Part shown: piece after piece, positions 54,229-59,324 of the stretch
Numbering within the stretch: the stretch's first letter is position 1
How the letters are laid out: every line of letters starts with the position of its first letter
The notes under the pieces: model-generated
The model's database searches: none
Seen by the model: the letters and a program-made list of their open reading frames with translations, nothing else
What the model was told of the DNA's origin: nothing
Made by a program: the position numbers and the translations under genes
Source of the DNA: Salinigranum marinum
Lineage (GTDB): Archaea > Halobacteriota > Halobacteria > Halobacteriales > Haloferacaceae
Assembly (NCBI RefSeq): GCF_024228675.1
Contig: NZ_CP100461.1
Span: forward strand, 992,001 to 1,056,000
Length of the DNA stretch: 64,000 bases
Reading direction: 5' to 3'

Positions 54229-54312
54229 GCGTGGGTAGCCAAGCCAGGAAACGGCGCAGCGCTTAGGACGCTGTCCCATAGGGGTCCGCCGGTTCAAATC
54301 CGGTCCCACGCA
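54229..54312 (+). tRNA. tRNA-Leu (anticodon TAG)
   Basis: 84 nucleotides. Acceptor stem GCGTGGG pairs with CCCACGC, then discriminator A. The anticodon stem CAGCG/CGCTG encloses CTTAGGA, giving anticodon TAG. A long variable arm (TCCCATAGGGG) marks a class II tRNA, and the T arm contains GGTTCAAATCC. CCA is not encoded. Confidence 0.95.
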
Positions 54313-54509
54313 CTCTCCTGCGAACGTCAGTGACCGGTGAGAGTGTTCCGTCCGGATTCGCCTCCGACGAGTCGCAGCCCGGGAAGCGAACGGAGTGAGC
54401 GACCCGGAACGTCTCGGCACGGTTCAGATCCGTTCACATCCGGTCATAGTTCTGCCCGAGCGACGGCGTAGCCAACGATCCGGATCCGGCCGCACGAGGC
54501 CACACGCCG

Positions 54510-55267
54510 TCACGTTGAGGCGGCGTACTCTCCGAGCCGGGCTTCGACCTGTTCGTCCAGCGCGTCGACGGCGCTCTCGACGTCGCGGCCGCGGGTCACG
54601 TCGACGTACGCCTCCTCGACCAGCGTGCGGACGGTGTCGAACGAGCCGATCCGTGCCCCCCGGGTCGCGGGGGTGTCGCGGGTGTCCATGAGCTGGCGGA
54701 CGGCCGTCGCGTAGCCAGGGTTGTCGTCGAACCAGCCCTCGCGGCGGAGGTCGTCGATCGCGGCCTCGTGGACGGGGAAGTAGCCCGTCTCGCGGTGCCA
54801 CCGGACCTGCTGTGCCGGCTGGGCGAGCCACGCGAGAAACCGGCCCGCGGCCTCCTGTTCGGCTCTGGGCAGGTCCGCCGGAACCCAGAGCGACGCCCCT
54901 CCGACGACGACGCCGCTGCGATCGTCGAGCACCGGGAAGTAGCCCATCGTCACGTCGAAGCCGCTCTCGGCGGCCCCGTCGACCACCGCCGTGCGCTTGG
55001 AGGTCGAGTCGATGAGCATGGCGACGTCGCCGTCGATGAAACACGACCGCGCCTCGCCGCGGGCCTCGACGCCGGGGTTGTGGTAGAGCCCGTCGCGCTC
55101 CAGTCGCCACCACTGCTCGAACAGTTCGTAGCCGACGTCGGACGCGAGCCGCGCCGTCGTCGGTGTGCCGCGTCGACCGTTGTCGGCGTCGACGAGCGGC
55201 TGATCGGCCTCCGCGAACCACTGTTCGACGAACCACGAGTAGTTCGCCCACGTCACGCCGGCGTCGA
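54510..55267 (-). pseudogene. C-terminal half of the split MCP-UgpB fusion: UgpB-like solute-binding domain
   Basis: About 250 codons (stop at 54510) that continue the solute-binding domain cut at 56422. It includes GVTWANYSWFVEQWFAEADQ, GGASLWVPADLPRAEQEA, then FLAWLAQPAQQVRWHRETGY and FPVHEA, very like E. coli UgpB (GGASLWV; WHQKTGYLP). It has no own start: the original gene began at 58200. Precise removal of 55270-56420 plus one TA joins GVV to IDAGVTW in frame, giving 845 residues. On its own this half is probably not translated. Confidence 0.85.
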
Positions 55268-55269
55268 TA

Positions 55270-56420
55270 GTGCCTAGTGGAAGTTATGAAGGTGGAATCT
55301 GATGTCTGAGGTATGTCTGGAGATCGCCGCAAAGAGATCGTCCGTCACCTCAGTGAGGACGATCTCGATCGACTCCTCACGGAGTCTACAGATGAAAAAC
55401 TCACTGAGCGGCTGATCTTCATCAAGCGGTTGTACAAGGGTGCGACCTTGGAGGACGCTGCCGACGATGTCGGCAGGTCCTCCGCAACAGGAACACGTTG
55501 GGCCCGCCGATGGAACAAGGGTGGCCTCGGACTTTTGATGCCGAACTTCGGGGGCGGCAGGCCCCCGAAGCTCGGCGAAGAACAACAGGAACGCCTCTTG
55601 GAACTGCTCCGTGAGGGCCAACCGTGGAAGAAACAGGAGATACAGCACCTCATCAACGAGGAGTTCGACGTTGAGTTTCACCCAGGCCACCTCACTACGT
55701 TCCTCGAAAAGCTCGGCCTCTCCTACGCAATTCCGCGGACTAAGCGTCCATCACGGCCAGAGGATGCCGAAGAGATCCTCGACGAACGCGTCGGCGACGC
55801 GTTCGACGAGGGATCTGATGAGCCGCACAACAAACGCGACGGAGACGACGAGGAAGGCTGGGTCGTTGACGAAGAGATCCGGACGGACGGTGGAACTGTG
55901 CTTGGATTTCTCGACACATCGCATCCACAACCGTGGGATAACTCACAGCGACTCTACACCGTCGACGACCCTCACATTACCCGACCGCTGGTTCGTCTAA
56001 CTTCACCAGCGGTCGGGTTCTATGCACTCTCTGGTGAGAGTGTACTCCAGTTCCCGACTACTCAGGAGAAAGAGCGAATCTGCGAGTGTCTCGAAGGGAT
56101 CCGCGAGCAGAATCCGAGCCAGCGGATTCTGCTCGTCTTGGATAACTTCTCTTCACACGTGTGCGAGTACACACGCAAACGAGCTCATCAGCTTGGGATT
56201 GACCTCGTGTTTCTCCCCGTTGGCTCACCGGATCTTAATCCGATCGAGCAGGTCTGGAAGAGTCTGAAATGGGAAGCGTCACCATTGATTGTGGAGAGCG
56301 CGGCAGAATACCGCGCTCTCCTCACCGAGCTCTTCGAGAAGCTCACGACCCAGCTAAGTTTCGCGGCCTCTTGGATCGACAATTATCTCGGCGGCTATCT
56401 TCAGAAGTTACGCTAAGTAC
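55270..56420 (+). mobile_element. IS630-family insertion sequence, complete
   Basis: 1151 bases, flanked by the TA target duplication expected for IS630 (55268-55269 and 56421-56422). Terminal inverted repeats begin GTGCCTAGTGG (left) and GTACTTAGCGT (right, other strand) and match at 16 of 22 positions. One intact transposase gene fills it. It is AT-richer than the host gene and has inserted in the middle of the MCP-UgpB fusion gene, opposite in direction. Confidence 0.92.
55313..56416 (+). CDS. IS630-family DDE transposase
   Basis: 367 residues. The N-terminal HTH region (about 20-130) has [20 protein letters not shown] and a winged helix with [20 protein letters not shown]. The DDE domain shows Asp in [14 protein letters not shown], Asp in [15 protein letters not shown], and Glu in [16 protein letters not shown], the usual IS630 arrangement. 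Both catalytic Asp and Glu are present and no stop interrupts it, so the element may be active. The stop codon lies within the right terminal repeat. Confidence 0.93.
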
Positions 56421-58200
56421 TAACGACGCCGGCGTCGACCAGCTGTTCGCTGGCGGCCGCCACCTCGGCGATCGTCTGGGGCGGCTCGTCGGGATCCAGC
56501 CCGGCGGTGCGGAACGCGTCGCGGTTGACGTACAGTACGGGGTTCGACGAGTTGAACGGGAGCGAGCAGAGCCGGCCGTCGTGGCGGTAGTAGTTGGCGA
56601 CGGGGTCGAGCAGGCTGTCGACCAGGTCGTCGGGCAGGATCGACTCGACGGCGACGAACGAGCCGCTGTCGAGTGCCCGCGTCGTCCCGATCTCGAACAG
56701 CTGTGCCACGGTCGGCGAGTCGTCGGAGCCGACCGCGTCCATCGTCGCGTTGAACGTGCCGCGGTAGCTCCCCTTCGAGACCATCTCGACCGGGACGCCG
56801 GTCTCGGCCTCGAACTCATCCGCCAGTTCCTCCAGGAGGAGCCCTTTTGCGCCACCCATCGCGTGCCACATCCGGACGGTCGTCTCCGCGTCGGCGGCCG
56901 CCCGCGACGACCGCACCCTGACGTCGCTCATCGACGAGTCCAGCGCGGCCGTCCGTTCCGAGAGGGTCTCGACGCTCGTCGCCGCCTCGACGAGCGAGGT
57001 CGTCTGTCCGCGCGCCGTCGCCGCCACGTCGTCGGCCGCGTCGGCGGTGTCGTCGCTGATCTCCCGGACGTCGTCGAGCATCTCGACGACCCCTTGGGAG
57101 GCGTCGGCTTGCGACTCGGTCGCGTCGGAGAGCTCCTCGATGCTGGCGCTGGCTCCTTCGAGGTCGTCGACGAGCCCCGCGATGGCGTCGAGCGCGTCGG
57201 TGATCGTCTCCGCACCGGACTCGACGCGCTGTCGCGTGTCGCGCATCTCGGAGACGGTCCGCTCGGTCCCCTCGCGGATGGTACCGATCGAGGCGGTGAT
57301 CTCGTCGGTCGCCCGCTGTGTCTCGCTCGCCAGTTCCTTCACCTCGTCCGCGACGACGGCGAAGCCGGCACCGTTTTGATCGGCGCGAGCCGCTTCGATG
57401 GAGGCGTTCAGCGAGAGCACGTGCGTCTGACTGGCCACGTCCGTGATGAACTCGACGACCGACTCGATCTCCTCGACGTCGTCTTCGAGGTCCTCGACGC
57501 GGTCGAGCGCCTCGGCCATCCGGTTGTCGATCTCGGCCAGCACCTTGACGGCCTCGGTGGCCGAGGCGTCGACTGTCTCCCCCCGGTCGGTCGCCTCCGC
57601 GGTCGCCTTCGTCAGGTCGTCGGCCGTCGCCGCGACCTCCTCGGTGGCGGCCGAGAGGTTCCGCATCTCGCCGGTGATGTCCTCGATGTGGTCGTGTTGT
57701 CGCCGCGCCCCGTCGGAGATGTCCTCGACCGCCCGCGCGACCGCCCGGCTCGCGTCCTTGGCCTCGTCCATCCCCGTCGCCACGCCCTCCGTCGCCCCGC
57801 GGACCTGCCCGCCGAACCGTTCGACCTCGGTGACGGTCTTGCTCCAGCGATCGACCAGTCGGTTGTACTCCCGCGCCACCGCACGCCGCTCGTCGGAGCC
57901 CCGTGACTCGTCCATCCGTCGGGTCAGGTCGCCGTCGGCGACCGCCGCGAGCAACTCCGCCACCTCGGACAGTGACTCGGTCTGCGGCGGCCCCTGTGCG
58001 GCGGTCCCGCCGTCCGTGGCCGGCGAAGTCGTCGACTGGTCTCTCTCACCCGCCTCGTCCCTGCCACCGGCGTCACGCACGTCCCGGTCCGCGGTCGTCG
58101 TACGGCCCGACGACGGCTCGCCCGTCCCTTCGCGTGGCTCGTTCCCCTCGCCGTCCGCGTCGTGGTTCGTTCCCCGCACGAAACGCCAGAGGTCTGTCAT
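56413..58200 (-). pseudogene. N-terminal half of the split MCP-UgpB fusion: cytoplasmic methyl-accepting transducer plus start of solute-binding domain
   Basis: 595 residues from the ATG at 58200, about 30 bases after a GTTAAATCG box. After an acidic leader, a HAMP-like stretch ([20 protein letters not shown]) and a long MCP coiled coil with the hairpin tip [20 protein letters not shown] then [19 protein letters not shown]. From about residue 450 it is UgpB-like: [53 protein letters not shown]. It enters the insertion sequence after AGVV and stops at 56413. The MCP part is intact and could still be made. No transmembrane helix is seen. Confidence 0.88.
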
Positions 58201-58508: not shown

Positions 58509-59324
58509 ATGGCGACCCTCTCGGAGATCCTCGATTACCTCATCACGGACGTGGACGGCGTGTTCCTCTTCTCGCCGAGCAGTTCGTTCTACGAGCAGGT
58601 CGCAGGCACCGACGCCGAAACCGAGGTCGTTGTCGTCGCGCCGCAGAACGCGGTCGACGCGGAGACGTACGTCGAACTCCCGCTGTCGTTCGAGAACGTG
58701 CGCGACCGCATTCGCTTCGGTGTCGAGGGGGCGATGGACCGCGGGATCGTCGCCGAGGGGGACGATCTGGCCTGTTCCGTCGCCGTCTTCGACGGCGATC
58801 CGGACTCGGTCGTCCGGGTGCGCGTCGACGAGTCGATGCACTCGGGGCTGTACGACCTCTTCACGCACTCGCGGGCCGAACCCGGCGTCATCCGCGACGT
58901 GTTCGAGGTGGCGATCGAACTGGGCAAGAAGGGACAGAAAGGCAAACCGGTCGGCGCGCTGTTCGTCGTCGGCGACGCCGGGAAGGTGATGAACAAGTCG
59001 CGGCCGCTGTCGTACAACCCGTTCGAGAAGTCTCACGTCCACGTGGGGGATCCGATCGTGAACGTCATGCTGAAGGAGTTCTCGCGGCTCGACGGCGCAT
59101 TTATCATCTCGGACTCGGGCAAGATCGTCTCGGCGTACCGCTACCTCGAACCGTCCGCGGAGGGCGTCGACATCCCGAAGGGACTCGGCGCACGGCACAT
59201 GGCCGGTGGGGCGATCACGCGCGATACGAACGCGACGGCCATCGTGCTCTCGGAGTCCGACGGGCTCGTTCGAGCGTTCAAAGGCGGTCAACTCGTTCTG
59301 GAGATCGATCCGGAGGACTACTGA
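58509..59324 (+). CDS. dacZ: Diadenylate cyclase DacZ (c-di-AMP synthase)
   Basis: 271 residues from the ATG at 58509, at leaderless distance from a CCCTTATCCC box. It condenses two ATP to c-di-AMP. The C-terminal DAC domain has the substrate motif SRLDGAFIISDSGKIVSAYR and GARHMAGGAITRDTNATAIV (family DGA and RH-x-x-A). The N-terminal 130 residues are of the archaeal DacZ type. The product controls osmotic balance in haloarchaea by family knowledge. The MscS gene follows after two bases. Confidence 0.93.
   Translation: MATLSEILDYLITDVDGVFLFSPSSSFYEQVAGTDAETEVVVVAPQNAVDAETYVELPLSFENVRDRIRFGVEGAMDRGIVAEGDDLACSVAVFDGDPDSVVRVRVDESMHSGLYDLFTHSRAEPGVIRDVFEVAIELGKKGQKGKPVGALFVVGDAGKVMNKSRPLSYNPFEKSHVHVGDPIVNVMLKEFSRLDGAFIISDSGKIVSAYRYLEPSAEGVDIPKGLGARHMAGGAITRDTNATAIVLSESDGLVRAFKGGQLVLEIDPEDY

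Follow-up and report, generated by a model that had tools for sequence, protein, structure and literature searches.

The DNA considered here is a 64,000-nucleotide stretch of Salinigranum marinum (contig NZ_CP100461.1, positions 992,001 to 1,056,000; hereafter the window), in which positions 54510..58200 of the minus strand hold an interrupted gene joining a methyl-accepting chemotaxis protein (MCP) to a UgpB-like solute-binding domain, 845 residues in all when read across the insertion. Both halves of the gene lie on the minus strand and are split by an IS630-type insertion element of 1,151 bp (55270..56420, plus strand), with a duplicated TA at either side (55268..55269 and 56421..56422, no strand). 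The element carries a transposase open reading frame (ORF) of 367 aa (55313..56416, plus strand; DDE_3, HTH_32 and HTH_23 in Pfam), and a second copy in the window's genome (G000:C1:1859239-1860389) is identical over the 1,151 bp and is likewise flanked by TA. The DDE transposase and the TA at both ends of both copies are features of the IS630 family; the terminal repeats are imperfect. As the two copies are identical, the insertion into the receptor gene is probably recent. Roughly 3 kb separate the second copy (L090:7240-8390) from the ORF of a further MCP in that genome (L090:11345-12937).

Removal of bases 55270-56420 and one TA leaves a joined frame of 2,538 bases including the stop codon, with 845 residues and no internal stops. 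The first-pass annotation had proposed a single gene split by an IS630 element with exact restoration of the frame; the single gene is confirmed by the open joined frame together with the TA duplication, as are the exact frame and its 2538 coding bases, although five of the right-hand ends that were tried keep the frame open. The junction is thus fixed by the TA duplication rather than by the frame alone, and the rebuilt loop at that point is one residue longer than in six fused relatives aligned beside the window protein. Because the first half breaks off within the binding domain, this strain has probably lost the receptor or its activity. It could be argued that the two halves still form a functional split receptor, as both are open and the identical copies of the element point to an insertion that is probably recent; however, the break falls within the binding domain and the second half has only an internal GTG start in the ORF list, making such a receptor very improbable.

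From N- to C-terminus, the encoded protein consists of an acidic linker or coiled coil, a HAMP-like segment in the window protein (residues 76-118; 57847..57975, minus strand; 18.7 bits, below the Pfam cut-off of 25), the MCP signalling domain (MCPsignal, residues 218-380; 57061..57549, minus strand), a linker of approximately 12 residues and a whole UgpB. In Pfam searches of the window, the upstream half matched MCPsignal at 134.9 bits (curated cut-off 34.6; 134.3 bits in the relative L126) as well as the start of SBP_bac_8/SBP_bac_1, and the downstream half matched the remainder of these same two profiles. The solute-binding domain is accordingly found in two parts, 56423..56901 and, with the stop codon, 54510..55269 (both minus strand), each matched in Pfam and each holding counterparts of ligand-site residues. 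The expected hairpin tip, LNASIEAAR, is located at 57385-57411, and the tip motifs for contact with CheW and CheA (TN-LALNA-I and G-GF-VVA-E) are invariant in 36 aligned relatives. A binding domain placed behind the signalling domain reverses the usual MCP order, as had been claimed from the sequence: 15 other long MCPs from 5 genomes, taken as a control, end their signalling domain 5-81 residues from the C-terminus.

The same arrangement is widespread among haloarchaea. A search with the binding half against 170 genomes from the same family, together with a search of 392 genomes of the order (E 1e-110, with a maximum of 4 candidates scored per genome, so that divergent fusions may be missed), placed the fusion in 80 haloarchaeal genomes: 46 of the 170 family genomes, window included, and 34 more from the order search, in which all 34 fetched long-frame matches outside the family were fused. 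The 46 family carriers comprise 42 uninterrupted ORFs (among them L061, which runs off its contig at the N-terminus, and L056, whose start is unclear), one frame-broken copy (L074), two copies truncated where their contigs stop (L079, L087) and the window itself. Besides the window there are thus 76 uninterrupted fused ORFs, and carriers include Haloarcula argentinensis, H. rara, Haloferax larsenii, H. mucosum, Halorubrum vacuolatum, Halohasta salina, Halonotius pteroides and Halobiforma nitratireducens. Within the aligned part, relatives of the first batch share 45-53% identity with the joined protein of the window. With relatives found fused in 76 uninterrupted ORFs, rather than as separate genes, the MCP-UgpB fusion is real and no artefact; the same relatives rule out a chance restoration of the frame or two neighbouring genes misread as one. 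The three other genomes of the window's genus have no match to the binding half at E 1e-30. Matches to plasmid records by tblastn, as seen in 20 of 218, are haloarchaeal and 41-48% identical, and are annotated as binding proteins of ATP-binding cassette (ABC) systems (one is unannotated).

The binding domain is best placed inside the cell. The 85 residues that precede the domain contain a strongly hydrophobic stretch in 64 unfused relatives (12-residue mean of 1.50-3.92, with a median of 2.73; an additional row was too short), whereas the same region in the 76 fused proteins reaches 0.44-1.48 (median 1.10; nine above 1.3), with no export-type hydrophobic stretch. Across the region that extends from the MCP domain to the C-terminus, the average of every 19-residue segment stays at or below 1.57 on the Kyte-Doolittle scale in all 76, which agrees with the earlier reading that no membrane helix separates the two domains. 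All 38 unfused haloarchaeal rows (36 different) carry by eye a twin-arginine and lipobox-like leader. Since the fused proteins lack this export signal of ordinary UgpBs, their binding domain is inferred to be cytoplasmic. An alternative would have the C-terminal domain exported, or acting from the cell exterior, as happens in conventional binding-protein-assisted chemotaxis; it can draw on the exported appearance of the unfused UgpB relatives examined and on the extracellular binding proteins that reportedly serve haloarchaeal transducers such as BasT and CosT. It is scarcely credible here, given the missing leader, the lack of any membrane-helix-like segment in all 76 proteins and the need, known for the family, for the MCP domain to be cytoplasmic in order to meet CheA and CheW. 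The term cytoplasmic transducer, used in the first-pass annotation, thus suits the position of the sensor but not always the anchoring, as 6 of the 76 fused proteins (L064, L069, L071, L073, L076, L078) have a hydrophobic N-terminal stretch with a 19-residue mean above 1.55. All six are of the glycerol-cluster type described below and keep the binding domain behind the MCP domain; the stretch may anchor the receptor, perhaps as a membrane hairpin with no outside domain.

That the C-terminal domain is a UgpB, as had been suggested, is upheld by sequence, in which the window's binding domain matches E. coli UgpB (4AQ4) at E 4.3e-54, and by structure prediction. The relative L126 was modelled (850 residues, mean predicted local distance difference test score (pLDDT) of 79, 36 sequences in the input) with its binding domain mostly at pLDDT of at least 90, and its four best fold matches in the PDB, with template modelling (TM) scores of 0.84-0.91 by target length, are all UgpB: E. 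coli UgpB W169S/W172S (6X84) at 0.91 and 0.90, Phaeobacter UgpB with glycerol-1-phosphate at 0.86, and 4AQ4 at 0.84. A viral fold search gave nothing useful. A quick tree, with the Shimodaira-Hasegawa-like approximate likelihood ratio test (SH-aLRT) as its only support, was built from 101 binding domains, namely 37 of the 77 fused (36 relatives thinned at 88% identity, and the window), 38 unfused haloarchaeal and 26 bacterial. The 75 haloarchaeal rows group apart from the 26 bacterial ones, and among them the fused domains form a single clade (SH-aLRT 100). The fusion most likely arose once, and the tree is compatible with this clade branching either inside the unfused haloarchaeal set or next to it. 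Among the best 80 of the 531 loci of a genome-wide scan, 15 are fused, all of them haloarchaeal, and 65 are not, so that within these 80 nothing points to a bacterial origin of the fusion. Two unfused UgpBs of the twin-arginine translocation (Tat) type, L093 and L272 (genomes G027 and G025), are 53% identical to the window's fused domain, and both genomes also hold the fusion.

The receptor genes often keep company with genes for glycerol use. In 31 of 76 loci, tblastn places glpK no more than 6 kb from the receptor, and a count of ORF clusters over 77 loci, window included, gives the same 31 with glp genes (the putative facilitator included) and 33 when dha or phosphotransferase system (PTS) genes are added; among non-redundant relatives the counts are 16 and 18 of 36. 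In most Haloarculaceae loci, glpC-glpB-glpA is divergent from receptor-glpK-putative facilitator. In Halohasta/Halonotius and their kin the order is glpK-facilitator-Orc-like-receptor-HPr, followed in several by the genes for enzyme I (EI) and dhaMLK, while G385 and Haloferax mucosum have a looser layout of glycerol genes; the Halorubrum copies and most of the Haloferax copies fetched have no glp gene nearby. According to the ORF caller, a same-strand glpK directly follows the receptor in 17 loci (gap 69-212 bp, median 132 bp), a same-strand HPr gene in 11 (gap 51-150 bp), and a divergent glpA stands beside it in 21; this caller missed some glpK genes that were found by tblastn (L127, L138, L154). 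One representative each of GlpA, GlpK, EI, DhaK, DhaL and DhaM scored above its NCBIfam cut-off, and a representative HPr exceeded the family cut-off but fell 3 bits under that of the haloarchaeal HPr model. GlpB and GlpC were identified from Pfam domains and position, and the gene beside glpK, which matches nothing in Pfam or NCBIfam, is presumably the facilitator.

As to location, from 121 MCP matches in 9 genomes besides G000, chosen for a glp-linked receptor, 112 remain as a control, and none of these lies by eye within 10 kb of the receptor-locus glpK, the nearest being at 12 kb in G048. Because glpK is found in 143 of 170 genomes at E 1e-120, a test of its co-occurrence with the receptor is little informative. 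Where a glpK ORF next to a receptor is short, the cause is a contig end and not decay of the gene. Inspection by eye of the 45 most frequent neighbour clusters revealed no genes for a Ugp permease or ATPase, no profile search having been made. The window's genome has a glp cluster without a receptor (glpK at C1:1609692-1611200). An Orc1/Cdc6-like ATPase gene is near the receptor in 25 of 77 loci, mostly inside the glycerol cluster (e.g., L156:12779-13951; TIGR02928 at 93 bits, cut-off 181), and in genome G060 a single frame of 2,402 residues (L056:10013-17218) begins with the first 156 residues of glpK and extends to the receptor end, which is either a deletion or an assembly error.

The ligand site of UgpB has been described for Phaeobacter, in which Tyr64, Ser143, Ser266 and Tyr342 contact the phosphate, Glu88, Gly303 and Arg393 contact the hydroxyls, and Trp188/191 form a clamp; the protein is reported to make no distinction between glycerol-1-phosphate and glycerol-3-phosphate (PMC12718374). 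Placed by spacing on the mature E. coli numbering, these contacts become Y42, S121, S247, Y323, E66, G284, R374 and W169/W172. Eight of the nine (Y42, E66, S121, W172, S247, G284, Y323 and R374) are invariant in all 76 fused relatives and kept in the window, where their counterparts, all on the minus strand, are Y479 (56764-56766), E503 (56692-56694), S552 (56545-56547), W605 (55233-55235), S681 (55005-55007), G717 (54897-54899), Y756 (54780-54782) and R807 (54627-54629). Of the 399 occupied columns, 44 are both invariant and identical to the E. coli residue; with columns treated as independent, 8/9 would be reached by chance with a hypergeometric probability of approximately 1e-7. This argues against the view that the domain has lost ligand binding and now has a docking or structural function, or that the MCP controls an output other than swimming, such as glp transcription. 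MCP-type systems with non-motility outputs are reportedly known, and the 17 loci with glpK directly behind the receptor would suit such a role, but the conserved hairpin tip of the 36 relatives, less well kept in the window, also speaks against it, leaving this explanation unlikely.

Together, the ligand residues and the glycerol-operon context support the earlier proposal that glycerol-3-phosphate or a related compound is sensed. The gene probably encodes a cytoplasmic chemoreceptor sensing glycerol-3-phosphate, and possibly also sn-glycerol-1-phosphate, which would give metabolism-based taxis to glycerol; ligand binding, the sign of the response and the coupling to taxis are deduced. With somewhat less assurance, it appears likely that the solute-binding protein of an ABC importer has been internalised as a cytoplasmic metabolite sensor, and that haloarchaea find glycerol, a main algal osmolyte of brines, by their internal glycerol-3-phosphate, using a receptor often encoded in a glycerol-use cluster. 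On this view, a haloarchaeal UgpB would have lost its Tat/lipoprotein leader, with a single fusion event putting the entire two-lobed domain behind an MCP signalling domain. Known MCP structures show the signalling domain as a hairpin whose second helix returns to the input end; because of this return, a C-terminal binding domain is expected to hang at the usual input end of the receptor, where closure of UgpB beside the HAMP-like end could feed the coiled coil as an N-terminal sensor does. Glycerol entering the cell would be phosphorylated by glycerol kinase and trapped as glycerol-3-phosphate, and as this pool is made inside the cell, its sensor has to be inside. Glycerol-3-phosphate would close the UgpB lobes, shift the coiled coil, change CheA activity and bias the archaellum, such that cells would swim towards glycerol according to the amount taken up and phosphorylated.

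Several observations weigh against glycerol-3-phosphate sensing of this kind. There is no glpK within 6 kb by tblastn in 45 of 76 loci or in the window, with 14 of these 45 loci having less than 6 kb of sequence on a side (two of the 14 hold HPr, EI and dha genes), and three receptor genomes (G057, G060, G159) have no glpK match at E 1e-120, although next to the receptor G057 has part of glpK where the contig ends and G060 has a truncated glpK. DSSP assigns residues 115 to 438 of the L126 model, its coil, to one unbroken helix in which no hairpin turn can be seen, the predicted TM score (pTM) of 0.55 does not fix the relative placement of the parts, and the NCBIfam UgpB equivalog model gave L126 only 219.5 bits, short of its cut-off of 411. 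The tip of the window protein (57385-57425) reads THVLSLNA, with TH for TN and LSL for LAL at positions invariant in the 36 relatives; perhaps this reflects relaxed selection, before or after the insertion. The first clamp tryptophan, W169, is replaced by Asn in 64 and by Thr in 12 of the 76 fused proteins, so that the ligand could be larger or different; the rows displayed in the alignment have Phe or Trp two residues before this column. The seven other alignment rows, of which three are broken or contig-cut fusions and four are UgpBs of haloarchaea without the fusion to an MCP, have the same replacement with the same contacts retained, so that the conservation shows a kept pocket and not a new role.

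The loss of this tryptophan in all 76 proteins, together with the dihydroxyacetone kinase and PTS genes at some loci, would fit a domain whose ligand is a different phosphorylated compound of the cell interior, for instance sn-glycerol-1-phosphate (which forms the backbone of archaeal lipids), dihydroxyacetone phosphate or a glycerophosphodiester, and which thereby reports lipid or triose-phosphate status. This is a possibility to be taken seriously but a doubtful one, as the neighbours are mainly glpK and glpA, whose shared metabolite is glycerol-3-phosphate, and the reported hydroxyl and phosphate contacts are retained.

A sensor of glycerol-3-phosphate inside the cell has partial parallels among haloarchaeal transducers. 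Car, the cytoplasmic arginine transducer of Halobacterium salinarum, is said to be soluble and to read an internal metabolite, as the fusion would, but with a different sensing region and without a UgpB. In BasT/BasB and CosT/CosB of H. salinarum, a solute-binding protein reportedly gives the transducer its specificity; there it is a separate surface lipoprotein, whereas here it is a fused internal domain. Extracellular binding proteins serving haloarchaeal transducers were reportedly described by Kokoeva in 2002. Compared with UgpB of the Ugp ABC importer (E. coli 4AQ4 and 6X84; Phaeobacter 9LFF), the fused domain shares the whole two-lobed fold, approximately 30% identity and 8/9 ligand residues; however, it lacks a leader, is predicted to lie inside the cell, is attached to a receptor and has its first clamp Trp replaced. 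A 2022 census describes cytoplasmic archaeal MCPs with C-terminal sensing regions and lists SBP_bac as a rare domain of archaeal MCPs (PMC9680633). These receptors resemble the fusion in having an extra domain C-terminal to the MCP domain and no export, but here the additional domain is the entire binding protein of an ABC importer, to which a metabolite can be assigned. In the main text of the census, SBP occurs once, glycerol not at all and no such interpretation is given; its supplements may list these proteins. Literature searches, covering few subscription papers, showed no archaeal receptor for glycerol or glycerol-3-phosphate, nor a statement that the SBP domain of MCPs is UgpB, sits in glycerol clusters or senses glycerol-3-phosphate.

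Glycerol made by Dunaliella can leak out to halophilic archaea, and Haloferax volcanii prefers glycerol as a carbon source (PMC12366361). The fusion supplies a candidate receptor, ligand and metabolic gate (glycerol kinase) for taxis by an internal metabolite, and suggests that the binding protein of an importer can be reused in the cell as a signalling domain behind, and not before, the MCP domain.

In the window, the next gene upstream of the interrupted one (58509-59321) encodes a DacZ-type diadenylate cyclase (DACZ_N, DAC), and a tRNA-Leu gene is located just downstream, at 54229-54313.

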